Translations under genes and position numbers: made by a program | The notes under the pieces: generated by a model | Seen by the model: the letters and a program-made list of their open reading frames with translations, nothing else | The model's database searches: none | Told to the model about the DNA's origin: nothing | From: Alphaproteobacteria bacterium | GTDB taxonomy: Bacteria > Pseudomonadota > Alphaproteobacteria > UBA2966 | Assembly (NCBI GenBank): GCA_030740435.1 | Contig: JASLXG010000139.1 | Span: 1-39,419 of the forward strand | Length of the DNA stretch: 39,419 nt | Direction: 5' to 3' | Part shown: positions 18,264 to 39,155 of the stretch, piece by piece | Numbering within the stretch: position 1 is the first letter of the stretch | Layout: the number at the start of each line of letters is the position of its first letter

Positions 18264-18352
18264 GTCGAAGGGTCGCGGGAAACTGCTACACTCGGCAGTC
18301 ATAAATCAATAATCGGATACCAACCGGCGGCGTTGCCGGATTGGGAGGACAG

Positions 18353-19351
18353 GTGCCGAGACTACTCGAAATCGAGGATCTGAAGACCCAGTTCTTCACC
18401 TCCGCCGGCACCGTGCGGGCGGTCGACGGCATCAGCTATGGTGTCGATGCCGGCGAGACGGTGGCGCTGGTCGGCGAATCCGGTTGCGGCAAGTCGGTCA
18501 GCGCCCTTTCCATCCTCAGGCTGATTCCCGATCCGCCCGGCCGCGTGGTGAGCGGCACCATCCGCCTCCTCGGCACCGACCTTTTGGGCTTGAGCGACGA
18601 GGAAATCCGCAAGATACGGGGCCAGCGCATCGCCATGGTGTTCCAGGAGCCCATGACGTCGCTCAATCCGGTGCTGTCGATCGGCCTGCAGCTCACCGAG
18701 ACGCTGCAACAGCATCTCGCCATGACGCCCGAGGCGGCGCGCGATCGCGCCCGCGAACTCCTGGGCATGGTCGGTATTTCCGATACCGAACGGCGTCTCA
18801 AGCAGTATCCCCACCATTTCAGCGGCGGCATGCGCCAGCGCGTGATGATCGCGCTGGCGCTTTGCTGCGAGCCCGAACTGATCATCGCCGACGAGCCCAC
18901 GACAGCGCTCGACGTCACCATCCAGGCGCAAATCCTCGAGCTGATGAAGGACCTGACCCGGCGCCTGGGCGTGGCCTTGGTCATCATCACGCACAACCTG
19001 GGCGTCGTGGCGCGCTATGCCGACCGGGTCAACGTCATGTACGCCGGCAAGATCATCGAGCGGGGCAGCGCCCACGATATCTACGCCCAGCCCCGCCATC
19101 CCTATACCGTGGGCCTGCTGGGTTCGGTGCCCCGGCTCGACCAGCCGCGGCGCAAGAAGCTCGAATCCATCGAGGGCCAGCCGCCCGACCTGGCCCGGCT
19201 CGACGACGGCTGCGCCTTCCGGCCGCGTTGCCGCCAGGCCCATGAGCGCTGCGCCGAAGCGATACCGGACCTCGAAACCGTGGGCGAGGGCCATCTCGCC
19301 GCCTGCTGGCGCTTGGCCGAGCTGGCGCCGCCGGCCCAGGCGGCCTCATGA
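18353..19351 (+). CDS. peptide-type ABC importer ATPase 1 (DppD/OppD family)
   Basis: The first ATPase of a five-gene importer. With GTG at 18353 (GGGAGG upstream) the protein is 332 residues. Walker A GESGCGKS is at 41-48, the Q-loop is in [12 protein letters not shown], the signature [15 protein letters not shown], Walker [13 protein letters not shown] and the H-loop IITHNLG. The C-terminal oligopeptide/dipeptide domain has the cysteine set [14 protein letters not shown] followed by a late AACW; in an OppD-type protein such cysteines hold an iron-sulfur cluster. Its TGA overlaps the ATG of the second ATPase. The 89 bases before it hold a short inverted repeat (CCGGCGGCGTTGCCGG) and no clear promoter. 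Confidence 0.94.
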
Positions 19352-20370
19352 ACGCGCCGCTGGCCACGCCGGAAGCTGGGCCACCCGAAGCGGCGGGCCA
19401 GGCCCTGGTCGAGGTCAGGGAGTTGCGCAAGTATTTCGCGGTCAGCGAGGGCCTGCTGATGTCCCGCAGCGTGGCCCAAGTCAAGGCCATCGACGGCATC
19501 AGCTTCCATATTCAGAAGGGCGAGACGTTGGGGCTGGTGGGCGAATCGGGCTGCGGCAAGACCACCACGGGGCGCTGCATCCTGCAGCTCGACCGGCCCA
19601 GCGCCGGCCACATCGTGTTCGACGGCGTCGACTTGACCAGCCTCGATCAGCGGGCCTTGAGCCCCTATCGGCAGAAGATTCAGGTGATCTTCCAGGACCC
19701 CTATTCGTCGCTCAATCCGCGCATGAAAATCGGCCAGATCATCGCCGAGCCGATGAAGGTGCACGGCATCGAACCAAGCCGCGAGGGACGGCGGAAAAGG
19801 GTCAGGGAACTGTTGGAGACCTGCGGTTTGCCGGCCCGCATGGCGGATCGCTATCCCCATGAGATGAGCGGCGGCCAGCGCCAGCGCGTGGGCATCGCCC
19901 GGGCGCTTTCGCTGAGGCCCCAATTCATCATCTGCGACGAGGCGGTGTCGGCGCTGGATGTCTCGATCCAGGCCCAGGTCATCAACCTCCTCGAGGACCT
20001 GCGCGACGAGTTCGATCTCACCTATCTCTTCATCTCGCATGACCTCAGCGTGGTGCGTCACCTCAGCCAACGGGTGGCGGTGATGTATCTCGGCAAGATC
20101 GTCGAGATGGCCGACTGCGACGCGCTCTACGACAACCCGCGCCACCCCTACACGCGAGCCCTCCTGGAGGCGGTTCCGGTGCCGGACCCGATGGTTGAAG
20201 GGACGCGGGCGCACGAGGTGATGGCAGGCGAAGTGCCCAGCCCCATCAACCCGCCGTCGGGCTGCGTCTTTCACCCACGCTGCCCGTTGGCCGTCGAGAG
20301 CTGCCGTACGCAGGTTCCAGAGTTCCGCGAAAGCGAGGCCGGCCACTGGCTGGCCTGCACCGAGGTTTGA
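19348..20370 (+). CDS. peptide-type ABC importer ATPase 2 (DppF/OppF family)
   Basis: The partner ATPase, 340 residues. Walker A GESGCGKT is at 65-72, the Q-loop [14 protein letters not shown], the signature [15 protein letters not shown], Walker [13 protein letters not shown] and the H-loop FISHDLS. The C-terminus repeats the four-cysteine arrangement ([14 protein letters not shown] and LACTE). The start codon overlaps the preceding stop (ATGA). With the first ATPase it would form the heterodimer that powers permeases at 22147 and 23136. Confidence 0.95.
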
Positions 20371-20459
20371 GGGCGCACGGCGGTGACGCAGGGCGCCCAT
20401 AGGAGCGTAGTTGGTAAAAGAACAACAGAAAACCTAGCATCAGGGGAAGGAGAAACGAT

Positions 20460-22076
20460 ATGCGAATCCGATTTGTGAAACACGCTATTCCGCTGGCCGC
20501 CGGCCTGGCCTTGGCGCTCGGCGCCATGGCTCCGATGGCGCCGCTGGCCCAGGCCGCCAAGAAGGGTGGAATCCTCAAGTACGTGGTGCCGGCGGAGCCG
20601 CCGAGCTTCGACGGACACCGCGAAACCACCTTCGCGCTGATCCATCCCATCGCGCCCTTCTACAGCGTGCTGATCCGGGTCAATCCCGACAACCCAAGCT
20701 CGCCCACGGATTTCGTCTGCGATCTCTGCACCGAAATGCCCAAGCCCAGCGCCGACAACAGCTATGTCTTCAAGCTTCGCAAGGGCGTCAAGTTCAGCGA
20801 CGGCTCGTCGCTGACGGCCCACGACGTGGTGGCCACCTTCAAGAAGATCATCTTCCCGGCGGCCGGCGTGGCCAGCGCCCGCAAGGCCTTCTACGTCATG
20901 GTCGACAGCGTCACCGCAACCGACGACCACACCGTGAAGTTCAAGCTCAAATACCCCTCCGGCGCCTTCATCCCGGCCTTGGCCAATCCCTACAACTTCA
21001 TCTACGCCAAGAAGATTCTCGACAAGGACATGCACTGGTATGAGAAGAACGTCATGGGCTCGGGTCCCTTCCGCCTCAAGGAACGCCAGGCCGGCGCCCT
21101 GATCAGCGGCACCCGCAACCCCGACTACTACCACTCCGGCAAGCCCTACCTCGACGGTTTCGAGGCCATCTTCGCCAAGAAGCAATCGCTTCGCGTGCAG
21201 GCCGTGCGCGGCGACCGGGCGGCCATCGAGTTCCGCGGCTTCCCGCCGAAAAGCCGGGACGATCTGGCCAAGGCGCTGGGCAAGGACATCACGGTCCAGG
21301 AGAGCAACTGGAACTGCGTCCTCATCGCCACACCGAACCATAAGAAAAAGCCCTTCGACAATCCCAACGTGCGCCGCGCGCTCAGCCTGGCCATCGACCG
21401 TTGGGGCGGCTCCAAGTACCTCTCGCGCATCGCCATCGTCAAAGCGGTGGGCGGCGTTGCCTTCCCGGGCCATCCCCTGGCGGCGACGAAGTCCGAACTC
21501 GAGCAGATCGCCGGCTACTGGCCCGACATCAACAAATCTCGGGCCGAGGCCAAGCGCCTGCTCAAGGAAGCCGGAGCTTCCAACCTCAAGTTCACCCTCA
21601 ATAACCGCGGCGTCGATCAGCCCTACAAGATCGTCGGCACCTGGCTGATCGATCAGTGGAAGCAGGTCGGGCTCACCGTCGACCAGCGGGTACAGCCCAC
21701 CGGTCCCTTCTACGCTTCGCTCCGCAAGAAGAAGGATTTCGACGTTTCCATCGACTTCAACTGCCAGGCCGTGGTCAATCCGCTGCTCGACGTGGCCAAA
21801 TACATATCCGACGACGTCTCGGGCAACAACTACGGCAACTACCAAGACCGCGAGATGGACAAGATGTTCAACGCCATGAACCAGGCGGCAAGCGTCAGCG
21901 AACAACGCTCCATCATGCGCAAGTTCGAAAAGCGTGCGCTCGACGAGCAGGCCAACGCCTTCATCACGCTGTGGTGGTACCGCATCATTCCTCACAGGTC
22001 CTACGTCAAGGGCTGGAAGATCAGCCCCAGCCATTACCTGAACCAGGACCTTTCAGGGGTTTGGCTGGAGCAATAG
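20460..22076 (+). CDS. ABC importer periplasmic binding protein (SBP_bac_5, peptide/nickel type)
   Basis: A 538-residue extracellular solute-binding protein of family 5. The signal peptide (MRIRFVKHAIPLAAGLALAL through PLAQA) ends before AKKGG. Family features are YVVPAEPPSFDGHRE near the mature N-terminus, LRKGVKFSDGSSLTAHDVV and GSGPFRLKERQAG. A strong ribosome site GGGAAGGAG precedes the ATG. Family members bind di- and oligopeptides, opines, sugars or nickel complexes; the ligand here is unknown. The gene order is ATPase, ATPase, binding protein, permease, permease, and a stem-loop follows this gene at 22106. Confidence 0.94.
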   Translation: MRIRFVKHAIPLAAGLALALGAMAPMAPLAQAAKKGGILKYVVPAEPPSFDGHRETTFALIHPIAPFYSVLIRVNPDNPSSPTDFVCDLCTEMPKPSADNSYVFKLRKGVKFSDGSSLTAHDVVATFKKIIFPAAGVASARKAFYVMVDSVTATDDHTVKFKLKYPSGAFIPALANPYNFIYAKKILDKDMHWYEKNVMGSGPFRLKERQAGALISGTRNPDYYHSGKPYLDGFEAIFAKKQSLRVQAVRGDRAAIEFRGFPPKSRDDLAKALGKDITVQESNWNCVLIATPNHKKKPFDNPNVRRALSLAIDRWGGSKYLSRIAIVKAVGGVAFPGHPLAATKSELEQIAGYWPDINKSRAEAKRLLKEAGASNLKFTLNNRGVDQPYKIVGTWLIDQWKQVGLTVDQRVQPTGPFYASLRKKKDFDVSIDFNCQAVVNPLLDVAKYISDDVSGNNYGNYQDREMDKMFNAMNQAASVSEQRSIMRKFEKRALDEQANAFITLWWYRIIPHRSYVKGWKISPSHYLNQDLSGVWLEQ

Positions 22077-36061: not shown

Positions 36062-39000
36062 ATGCCCCCACGCATTTTCCGCTACATCCGCATGTTCAGC
36101 CTGCGCCAGCAGTTCGCGGTGATCGTGCTGACGCTGGTTTCGTTTCCCTTCCTTTACGTTTCCCTGCAACTGCCCAAGACGATCATCAACGAGGCCATCG
36201 CCGGCGACGGCTCGGCGGTGGATGTGCTGGGCTTCGAGTTCGAACAGATCCCCTACCTGCTGTTGCTCTGTGGCGCCTTTTTGGCCCTGGTCTTCGTCAA
36301 CGGCGGCTTCAAATTCCAGATCAACGTCTACAAAGGAGTGATGGCCGAACGTCTGTTGCGGCGTTTGCGCTACATGCTGGTCGAGCGCGTCATCCGCTTT
36401 CCCCTGTCGCAGTTCCGCGTCACCTCGCAGGGCGAGCTGGTGGCCATGATCACGGCCGAGGTCGAGCCCCTGGGCGGCTTTTTCGGCGATGCCATCGCGC
36501 TGCCCATATTCCAGGGCGGCACCTTCCTGACCATCGTCGTCTTCGTCTTCATGCAAGACCCCTGGCTGGGTCTGGCGGCGGTGTCGTTGATCCCCATCCA
36601 GGGCTACGTCATCCCCAAACTGCAGCGCCGTGTCAACATGCTGGGCAAGGAACGGGTGCGCAACGTGCGCAGCCTCTCCGACCGCGTCGGCGAGCTGGTC
36701 TCGGGCATCAGCGAAGTGCGTGGCCACGATACCTCGGGCTACATCCTGGCGGATTTCTCGCAGCGCCTGGGCAAGATCTATGACATCCGCTTCGATATCT
36801 ACAAACGGAAGTTCTTTATCAAATTCCTCAACAATTTCCTCAACCAGTTGACACCGTTTTTCTTCTTTTCCATCGGCGGCTACCTGGTGATCATCGAAAA
36901 CCTGACCTTCGGCGCCCTGGTGGCGGCGTTGGCCGCCTACAAGGACCTGTCTGCGCCCTGGAAGGAGCTGCTGAGCTACTACCAGCGCATGGCCGATGCC
37001 TCGATCAAGTACGAGGACCTGGTCAGCCAGTTCCAGCCGGCCGGCATGACCGATCCCGAGATCATGTACAACCGGCCCGAGGAGCTGCCGGCGCTGGCCG
37101 GGCCGGTAAACATGAACGGCGTCAGCCTGGTCGACGAAAACGGCATCAAGACGGTCGACAACGCCTCGTTGGCGCTGGAGCCAGGCAGCCGGGTGGCACT
37201 GATCGGCCCGGGTGGCAGTGGCAAGGAGCAGATCGCCCGCCTGCTGGCGCGCTTGGCCTTGCCCACCTCGGGCAAGATCACCATCGGCGGCGAGGATCTG
37301 GCCAGCCTGCCCGAGGCCGCCGTGGGGGCGCGCATCGCCTATACTTCGGCCGAATCCTATCTCTTCAACGGCACCATCTTCGACAATTTGATTTTCGGCC
37401 TGCTGCACGACGTCGCGGAGGAAAGCGAGATGTCCTCGCTGCGTCGGGCGCAATACGACGAAGCCCTGGCCTCGGGCAACAATCCCGCCAACTTCGACCT
37501 CGATTGGATCGACTATGGCGGCGCCGGCGCCGCCGGGCCGGACGAATTTATGCAGCGCCTGACCCGGGTGGTGGCGGCGGTCGAGCTGGAGGACGATTTT
37601 TTCCGTATGGGCCTCAGGCAGACCATCGATCCCGAGGGGAATTCAGACCTGGCCCAGGGCATCCTTTGGGCGCGCCTGCGTATCCAGGACGACTTGGCCC
37701 AGCGAGGCATGACCGATCTGGTACGCCAGTACGATCCTGAATCCTTCAATCCTTACGTTTCGGTAGCCGAGAACATCCTTTTCGGGGTCTCGCGCGATCC
37801 CAGCTTCGCGGTCGACGAGATGGCCGCCAATCCGGTCATCACCGAGCTGCTCGGGGACGAGCAACTGCTCGACCGTTTCGAGGAGACCGGGCGCCGTGTG
37901 GCCGAGACCATGGTCGAGCTGTTTGCCAACCTGCACTCCGGCGATCCGCTTTTCGAACGTTACAGCTTCCTCGACGAGGATGCGCTCGACGACCTGCAGA
38001 TCGTGGTGCGCCGCCTGGGCTCGGGCGAGACCAAGGAGGCCAGCGAAGCCGACCGCGAAGTGCTGCGCAGCCTGGCCATGAAACTGGTGCCGCAACGCCA
38101 TCAGTTGGGCCTGATCGACGATACCTTCCAGGAGGCGGTGCTGCGGCTGCGGCTGCGTTTGCGCCAGGTCATCGACGAGGAGGTCGCTGACAGGACGGAG
38201 GCCCGGGTGACGTTTTTCGACCGCGCCGCCTACTCGAGCGGCCTGACCATCGAAGGCAATATCCTGTTCGGCTCAGTCGCCCACGGCCGCCCCGATGCCC
38301 CCGAAGAGGTGGGCGGCGTGATCGACGCCATCATGGACGACCTGGGGCTGCGCCAGGCCGTGGTGCAGGCGGCTTTGGATATCCCCAGCGGCATCGCCGG
38401 CGGCCGCCTCACGCCGGCCGTGCGGCAAAAGATCGCCCTGGCCCGGGCCGCTCTCAAGCAACCCAGGCTGCTGATCATCGACGAGGCCCTGACCGCCCTC
38501 GACGGCGCCTCGCGGGCCAGGCTGCTGGCCAGCCTGGGCGGCCTTTTGCCCGAGGGCACGATCCTCTGGATCGATAGCGAGCTCCCTGCCGAGATGGCCT
38601 TCGACCGGGTCATGAATGTCAGGGCGGGCCGGGTCGAGGATCTCGAGGCGGTCCCGGCCGAAAGGGCCGAAGAGATCCCTGGCGAGGCCGAGGGCGACAA
38701 CTTGGCCGCCATGGCAACGCGCCTGATGCGGGTGCCGATGCTGGCCGGGCTCGAGCATTCGCAGCTCAAGCTGCTGGCCTTCACCAGCGACACCCTGACC
38801 TATGACGTGGGCGAACGCATCATCCAGCAGGGTGATACCGGCGACTGTGCCTACGTCATCACCGGGGGCGAGGCCAAGATCGTGGTCGAGCGCGACGGCC
38901 AGGAGCGCTTCATCCGCACCTGCGGCGAAAACGAGATTCTGGGGGAGTTGGCGCTGCTCAACGACATCCCGCGCACCGCCAGCATCGAGGCGGTGACCGA

Positions 39001-39115
39001 ACTGACGGTGCTGCGTATGAGCAAGGACGTCTTCCTCGAGCTCTTGAAGGCCAACAACCACGCCGCCCACGCGGTAATGCGCGAAATCGCCCAGCGCCTG
39101 GCCAGCATGACCTAA
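36062..39115 (+). CDS. ABC exporter-like protein with degenerate, interrupted ATPase domain and C-terminal cNMP-binding domain
   Basis: 1017 residues. Residues 1-330 are an ABC type-1 exporter membrane domain (about six helices). The ATPase domain starts near 350, but most catalytic motifs are altered: Walker A is GPGGSGKE (382-389, Glu for Ser/Thr), the Q-loop glutamine is missing in AYTSAESYLFNGTI (426-439), the signature LSGGQ is LTPAV (783-787), and the H-loop is WIDSEL (836-841) with Ser for His. Walker B is kept: LLIIDEALTALD (803-814). About 280 residues (447-728) are inserted between the Q-loop and signature; similar NILFG segments occur at 442, 571 and 733. Residues 888-1017 are a cyclic-nucleotide-binding domain with E962 and R971 in GELALLNDIPRTA. 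I chose ATG 36062; no clear ribosome site. Confidence 0.92.
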   Translation: MPPRIFRYIRMFSLRQQFAVIVLTLVSFPFLYVSLQLPKTIINEAIAGDGSAVDVLGFEFEQIPYLLLLCGAFLALVFVNGGFKFQINVYKGVMAERLLRRLRYMLVERVIRFPLSQFRVTSQGELVAMITAEVEPLGGFFGDAIALPIFQGGTFLTIVVFVFMQDPWLGLAAVSLIPIQGYVIPKLQRRVNMLGKERVRNVRSLSDRVGELVSGISEVRGHDTSGYILADFSQRLGKIYDIRFDIYKRKFFIKFLNNFLNQLTPFFFFSIGGYLVIIENLTFGALVAALAAYKDLSAPWKELLSYYQRMADASIKYEDLVSQFQPAGMTDPEIMYNRPEELPALAGPVNMNGVSLVDENGIKTVDNASLALEPGSRVALIGPGGSGKEQIARLLARLALPTSGKITIGGEDLASLPEAAVGARIAYTSAESYLFNGTIFDNLIFGLLHDVAEESEMSSLRRAQYDEALASGNNPANFDLDWIDYGGAGAAGPDEFMQRLTRVVAAVELEDDFFRMGLRQTIDPEGNSDLAQGILWARLRIQDDLAQRGMTDLVRQYDPESFNPYVSVAENILFGVSRDPSFAVDEMAANPVITELLGDEQLLDRFEETGRRVAETMVELFANLHSGDPLFERYSFLDEDALDDLQIVVRRLGSGETKEASEADREVLRSLAMKLVPQRHQLGLIDDTFQEAVLRLRLRLRQVIDEEVADRTEARVTFFDRAAYSSGLTIEGNILFGSVAHGRPDAPEEVGGVIDAIMDDLGLRQAVVQAALDIPSGIAGGRLTPAVRQKIALARAALKQPRLLIIDEALTALDGASRARLLASLGGLLPEGTILWIDSELPAEMAFDRVMNVRAGRVEDLEAVPAERAEEIPGEAEGDNLAAMATRLMRVPMLAGLEHSQLKLLAFTSDTLTYDVGERIIQQGDTGDCAYVITGGEAKIVVERDGQERFIRTCGENEILGELALLNDIPRTASIEAVTELTVLRMSKDVFLELLKANNHAAHAVMREIAQRLASMT

Positions 39116-39155
39116 CCCGGATCTCATTTCATGAGATCCGGGTTAGGTTTTTTTT
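39111..39155 (+). terminator. Rho-independent terminator of the ABC-cNMP gene
   Basis: A perfect 17-base stem: 39111-39127 (starting CCTAACCCGG) pairs with 39131-39147 across the loop TTC, followed by eight T at 39148-39155. The gene's TAA stop (39113-39115) lies within the left arm. A minus-strand gene may end at about 39396. Confidence 0.95.

Follow-up and report, generated by a model that had tools for sequence, protein, structure and literature searches.

An ABC exporter is generally taken to require the hydrolysis of ATP at one or more of its sites. In the known heterodimers, the working site receives an intact signature from the degenerate half. A cyclic-nucleotide-binding (CNB) domain is linked to an exporter in HetC of Nostoc, where it is N-terminal, occurs together with a C39 peptidase, is required for function, and binds ppGpp in vitro; HetC also needs its ATPase residue (PMC10986499). 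The gene described here lies on the forward strand of the window (the whole stretch of 39,419 nucleotides that was analyzed), at 36062–39115. Its product of 1017 amino acids comprises a type IV ABC-exporter membrane domain (TMD), a split ABC ATPase domain (NBD), and a C-terminal CNB domain. Degeneracy of the catalytic motifs is a property of the whole family of this protein.

The frame is uninterrupted for 1017 codons from the ATG at 36062 to the stop at 39115. A strong intrinsic terminator (39109–39149, forward strand) overlaps the stop codon and consists of a 19-pair hairpin stem and a T-run, so that the open frame and terminator of the preliminary description are both confirmed. The TMD is ABCB-like, covers residues 1–325 (36062–37036), and is matched by PF00664 over residues 39–290 (2e-19, over the cut-off). 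The ATPase domain PF00005 is matched in two pieces (1.4e-17, over the cut-off) with its best stretch at residues 366–460, and the N-terminal half of the NBD core, also aligned with the ComA NBD, occupies residues 343–445 (37088–37396). The whole-chain AlphaFold2 model has a mean pLDDT of 90.6. It has the type IV ABC exporter fold, with the TMD followed by the NBD in one chain (Z about 24–25 to type IV exporters), and the top structural matches include TM287/288, TmrAB, and TAP. Taken together, its two NBD halves align structurally with the NBD of ComA (Z 25.1, rmsd 2.0 over 228 residues). The top NCBIfam match is MsbA (TIGR02203), which at 165.5 bits stays below the equivalog cut-off of 602 bits. 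No peptidase family was found in the Pfam scan of the window protein.

Walker A of the window copy (residues 382–389, 37205–37228) is the degenerate GPGGSGKE, the Q-loop region reads YTSAES and has no glutamine, the signature (38408–38431) reads LTPAVRQK, and the H-loop position (38576–38578) is occupied by Ser839. Walker B is intact as LLIIDE (38468–38485; LLIIDEAL in full), and the D-loop ALD is intact as well. All of these readings are as first described. Among the features of an active ATPase, the Walker B Asp-Glu is present, and a canonical Walker A, signature, H-loop histidine, and Q-loop glutamine are absent. Completion of the site from elsewhere in the chain was considered and rejected: the sequence contains no second GK[S/T] or LSGGQ, and the NBD core folds from two halves around an insert.

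The same motifs were counted in 93 aligned members, all from Alphaproteobacteria, and at least one essential position is degenerate in every one of them. GK[S/T] is kept in 5/93, while aspartate or glutamate replaces the serine or threonine in 72/93. The lysine or arginine of the P-loop is retained in 90 members, and the P-loop is lost in some members of the clade with a fused CNB domain (L107, L112, and L119). LSGGQ occurs in none of the 93, the usual reading being LSxAQRQK. The Walker B aspartate is kept in 16/93 and lost in 77/93, with the Asp-Glu pair in only 5/93, the window among them, and the H-loop histidine is found in 31/93. The description of nearly all ATPase motifs except Walker B as degenerate holds for the window protein, but in the family an intact Walker B is the exception. 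Retention of GKE, LTPAV, and the CNB domain across genera had been named as support for a distinct family; a coherent degenerate family with a CNB module does exist in 71/224 genera, but GKE and LTPAV are not conserved in it. What is conserved instead is an acidic residue in place of the serine or threonine, a signature that in most members is of the LSxAQRQK type, and a triplicated module.

The relative L083 has GKT, the Asp-Glu pair, and the histidine, and only its LSGGQ is missing. The same-genus orthologue of the window protein has GSGKE, LSPTV, IIDEAL, and serine at the H-loop position. Six canonical ABC exporters of the window's own genome all keep GK[S/T], LSGG, and the Asp-Glu pair, which indicates that the motif loss is not an alignment artefact. 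Eight further members, obtained by a class- and phylum-wide search with the insert profile, are equally or more degenerate. A pseudogene or single decayed copy was rejected on the grounds of the open frame, an omega that is low in every domain, and a degeneracy that recurs in the same-genus orthologue and throughout the family. Homologues with canonical motifs at the same places, which by the preliminary description would have refuted it, did not turn up: the insert occurs in 31 of 398 genomes of the phylum, all of one class, and in none of these was it found combined with the complete set of canonical motifs. Judging by the substituted residues, canonical ATP hydrolysis has probably been lost across the family. 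In the window copy, which keeps the P-loop lysine, the D-loop, and the Asp-Glu pair of Walker B, ATP may still be bound, or slowly hydrolysed through atypical residues.

The NBD is interrupted by approximately 270 residues, a feature overlooked in the first reading, in which an "ENILFG" module occurring three times (Asn442, Asn571, and Asn733) was also missed. The insert (residues 446–716, 37397–38209) lies in the helical subdomain, between the Q-loop and the signature. Together with its canonical flanks, it yields three copies of the post-Q-loop exporter segment ("TIxENIxxG"). Module 1 (37334–37615) comprises the Q-loop strand, TIFDNLIFG with N442, and the helices after it. Module 2 (37709–37903) comprises YDPESFNPYVSVAENILFG with N571 and the helices after it, and module 3 (38207–38389) comprises VTFFDRAAYSSGLTIEGNILFG with N733 and G737, in canonical register with the signature. 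The three asparagines are present in 92/93, 93/93, and 93/93 members, respectively, and G737 in 93/93. HHalign gives E-values, each referring to a single pairwise comparison, of 6.2e-14 for modules 2 and 3, 1.2e-6 for modules 1 and 2, and 4.5e-5 for modules 1 and 3. These comparisons support mutual homology of the modules and triplication of the Q-loop module. Modelled alone, the insert region (residues 448–784) has a pLDDT of 94.2. The insert matches no Pfam family and no PDB sequence below E 0.6, and the best Foldseek match of its fold to the PDB (E 1.1) is not significant, which need not mean that the fold is new.

The fused CNB domain covers residues 896–1010 (38747–39091) and is matched by PF00027 over residues 913–998 (5.8e-21, 74.7 bits against a cut-off of 27.5). 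Its phosphate-binding cassette GELALLNDIPRTAS (38942–38983) contains G961, E962, and R971, which are present in 87/87, 81/87, and 87/87 of the CNB sequences. The C-terminal CNB domain with R971 and E962 is accordingly as first reported. A CNB domain adjoining or fused to the ABC gene was detected at 87 loci, and no CNB gene was detectable in the DNA examined at six loci. In most relatives it is encoded unfused, by a separate gene of approximately 155 codons that follows the ABC gene immediately and in the same orientation. In many members this gene is in another frame than the ABC gene, and the in-frame stops obtained in the genome search fall where the two distinct genes adjoin. Readthrough of the stop codon was set aside, as the stop codon and the linker vary among members and the CNB gene is often out of frame. 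In a quick, unrooted tree, a branch with an SH-aLRT of 99 separates the nine fused proteins, including that of the window, from all others; one fusion or fission event is enough to explain this arrangement. Of the fusion noted in the preliminary description, the CNB partner is the conserved part, and the fusion itself is confined to this clade of nine.

The CNB domain is predicted from its sequence to bind a cyclic nucleotide. The window's genome encodes 23 class III adenylate/guanylate cyclase domains, a large repertoire for cyclic-nucleotide signalling, which makes a supply of such nucleotides likely. By analogy with HetC, whose CNB domain binds ppGpp, the ligand may be other than cAMP or cGMP. 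No DNA-binding domain was found in the Pfam scan of a representative stand-alone CNB partner. The CNB partner on pSymB of S. meliloti (L143, 11410–11874) is annotated as a Crp/Fnr regulator; a homologue has no Pfam DNA-binding domain, and the label is likely a misannotation. The window's genome also encodes, around 5229–6716 of contig G000:C17 (L007), an ABC protein with an apparent N-terminal CNB domain and canonical GKS, LSGGQ, and Asp-Glu.

In the comparison with the same-genus orthologue, the TMD has an omega of 0.06–0.07, the CNB domain 0.07, the NBD core 0.13–0.23, and the insert 0.18–0.21, a contrast between domains that is modest and comes from one genome pair. For two canonical exporters compared between these two genomes, omega is 0.10 for the TMD and 0.11–0.16 for the NBD. 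In the family alignment, columns conserved at 90% or above are most frequent in the TMD (68/325) and least frequent in the NBD half that contains Walker A (6/106). Purifying selection is strong, and strongest on the membrane and CNB parts; the ATPase half is under looser constraint than either. By this measure the window protein is functional.

Relatives are present in 96/289 sampled genomes of Alphaproteobacteria, representing 71/224 genera. Among 398 genomes of the phylum, a whole-protein search matched 27 and an insert-profile search 31, all of the same class. The annotated relatives, e.g., those of Azospirillum, Ruegeria, Rhizobium, and Sinorhizobium, are likewise all from Alphaproteobacteria. 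Their database names are "ABC transporter transmembrane domain-containing protein" or "ABC transporter ATP-binding protein", and no description of this family was found among open-access papers. The family is widespread in Alphaproteobacteria and apparently undescribed. A scan of the genome contigs returned a sole close relative, in two pieces, and otherwise weak matches to the CNB domain only. The window's genome has the fused copy only, while a genome of the same genus (G655) has a fused copy and an unfused copy, the latter beside glycosyltransferases. Three genomes (G107, G616, and G619) that carry a full-length member also carry TMD-only paralogues of approximately 400–425 codons, which match TMD residues 5–320 only. 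Their loci (L161 at G107:C4:13623-30546, L162, and L163) have no NBD downstream and adjoin multicopper-oxidase-like and PCuAC-like genes, named by eye. These paralogues suggest that the TMD can act without an NBD of its own, possibly by pairing in trans.

The contig of the window ends 304 bases past the gene. The upstream genes on the same strand encode an FMN oxidoreductase, a short-chain dehydrogenase, an M24 peptidase, and an enoyl-CoA hydratase, with no evident link to it. Glycosyltransferases are found near 66/84 unfused loci, in contrast to 0/8 fused loci, with neighbouring open reading frames called by conservation and not by a gene finder. At unfused loci, the upstream, divergent genes encode two GT28-like and two GT4 glycosyltransferases, a histidine phosphatase, an oligopeptide-type ABC ATPase, and a polysaccharide-deacetylase-like protein, the last recognized by eye only and without a Pfam match. 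Downstream of the ABC gene are the CNB gene and a Methyltransf_17 methyltransferase. This cluster is exemplified by L052 (3–7861) and is the same at most unfused loci; no description of its product was found in the open-access literature. On p42e of Rhizobium etli, in R. leguminosarum, and on pSymB of S. meliloti, the gene occurs with three glycosyltransferases and an importer operon. A member from Azospirillum, annotated as a single long open reading frame, has importer and glycosyltransferase genes downstream, and the split of fused and unfused members by context is therefore not absolute. No close relative of the neighbouring glycosyltransferase is present in the window's genome, where the best match has 26% identity. 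The window also contains oligopeptide-type ABC importer genes with an SBP_bac_5 binding protein (18341–22073), whose ATPases are 46% and 40% identical to the importer ATPase of the glycosyltransferase cluster. No canonical exporter was found conserved beside the gene across the family in the neighbourhood survey.

The reading favoured here, with confidence evenly balanced for and against it, is that the family represents a cyclic-nucleotide-controlled, non-hydrolysing pseudo-ATPase membrane protein of the exporter type. A functional exporter-type membrane domain would carry an NBD that has kept its fold, lost the residues for canonical hydrolysis, and been enlarged by triplication in its helical subdomain. 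The CNB domain, fused or separate and with an intact phosphate-binding cassette, would bind a cyclic nucleotide, and the membrane domain would receive this signal at its coupling helices by way of the pseudo-NBD. The protein may then act as a gated or passive flippase, or as a switchable scaffold. Ancestrally, it may have served an envelope glycan or glycolipid that the neighbouring glycosyltransferases produce. The copy in the window belongs to a separate fused clade outside the glycosyltransferase gene cluster, and the substrate of that clade need not equal that of the unfused clade. A constrained TMD and CNB domain, lost catalytic residues, and an enlarged NBD fold fit a signal-relaying pseudo-ATPase, and we infer both the signal relay and the substrate from such features. 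Gating or regulation by a cyclic nucleotide, as the preliminary description had proposed, would be part of this mechanism. It is also conceivable, though here we are more doubtful, that an ABC exporter lineage dropped ATP as its fuel and became a cyclic-nucleotide-gated channel, flippase, or scramblase in which the triplication-enlarged NBD relays the state of the CNB domain.

Three other explanations compete with the pseudo-ATPase reading. The protein may still be an ATP-driven exporter, such as a lipid or glycolipid flippase, that hydrolyses slowly by substituted residues under cyclic-nucleotide regulation. The P-loop lysine or arginine kept in nearly all members, the Walker B Asp-Glu of the window copy, purifying selection on the NBD core, and MsbA as the best NCBIfam match, though far under its cut-off, are all consistent with this. 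It is nevertheless unlikely, because the Mg2+-binding serine or threonine is acidic in most members, the Walker B aspartate is usually lost, LSGGQ is lost in all, and the three fused-clade members named above lack the P-loop itself. Improbable as well is a degenerate half of a heterodimeric exporter, whose canonical half, encoded elsewhere, would provide a working ATP site as in TAP1/2 and TM287/288. The type IV exporter fold with its heterodimeric structural matches, and the canonical exporters in the window's genome, speak for such a pair, but the signature that a degenerate half would have to supply is lost here too, and the conserved neighbours of the gene include no canonical exporter. 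We know of no heterodimeric exporter pair with this insert. Finally, the protein may be a scaffold or regulator without transport, in which the membrane domain anchors glycosyltransferases and switches them on a cyclic nucleotide. The glycosyltransferase operon adjoining most unfused members fits this idea, and the triplicated modules could serve as extra docking surfaces. It remains distinctly improbable, as the TMD is the best conserved part, the TMD-only paralogues adjoin multicopper-oxidase-like genes and not glycosyltransferases, and the fused clade has no glycosyltransferase neighbours.

If the pseudo-ATPase reading is true, it suggests a transporter that is steered by a signal molecule and not driven by ATP. 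With both sites degenerate and a dedicated sensor, in about a third of the sampled alphaproteobacterial genomes, the family offers a natural test of an exporter TMD without its engine. It also provides these bacteria's many class III cyclases with a concrete candidate target and flags a conserved glycosyltransferase cluster on Rhizobium and Sinorhizobium replicons.

Compared with known systems, the family has the TMD fold, NBD core fold, and domain order of MsbA, TM287/288, and TmrAB. It differs from them in its lost motifs, the insert of approximately 270 amino acids with duplicated Q-loop modules, and the CNB partner. A naturally degenerate NBD is shared with TAP, TM287/288, and MRP1, but these keep one canonical site, whereas a homodimer of the family would have both sites degenerate and has no conserved partner gene nearby. 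The HetC-type peptidase exporters likewise link a CNB domain to a type IV exporter, and HetC is the precedent for control of an exporter through such a domain. In contrast to HetC, the CNB domain of the family is C-terminal or separate, the peptidase is absent, and the NBD is degenerate, so the family is not of the HetC type. Stand-alone CNB proteins and Crp/Fnr regulators have the same GE...PRTA phosphate-binding cassette, while the partner of approximately 155 amino acids differs from Crp/Fnr in having no DNA-binding domain in the Pfam scan, despite one Crp/Fnr annotation. CFTR and SUR are ABC exporters with a changed job, and the ligand-controlled reading of the family, if true, would be a bacterial parallel to them.
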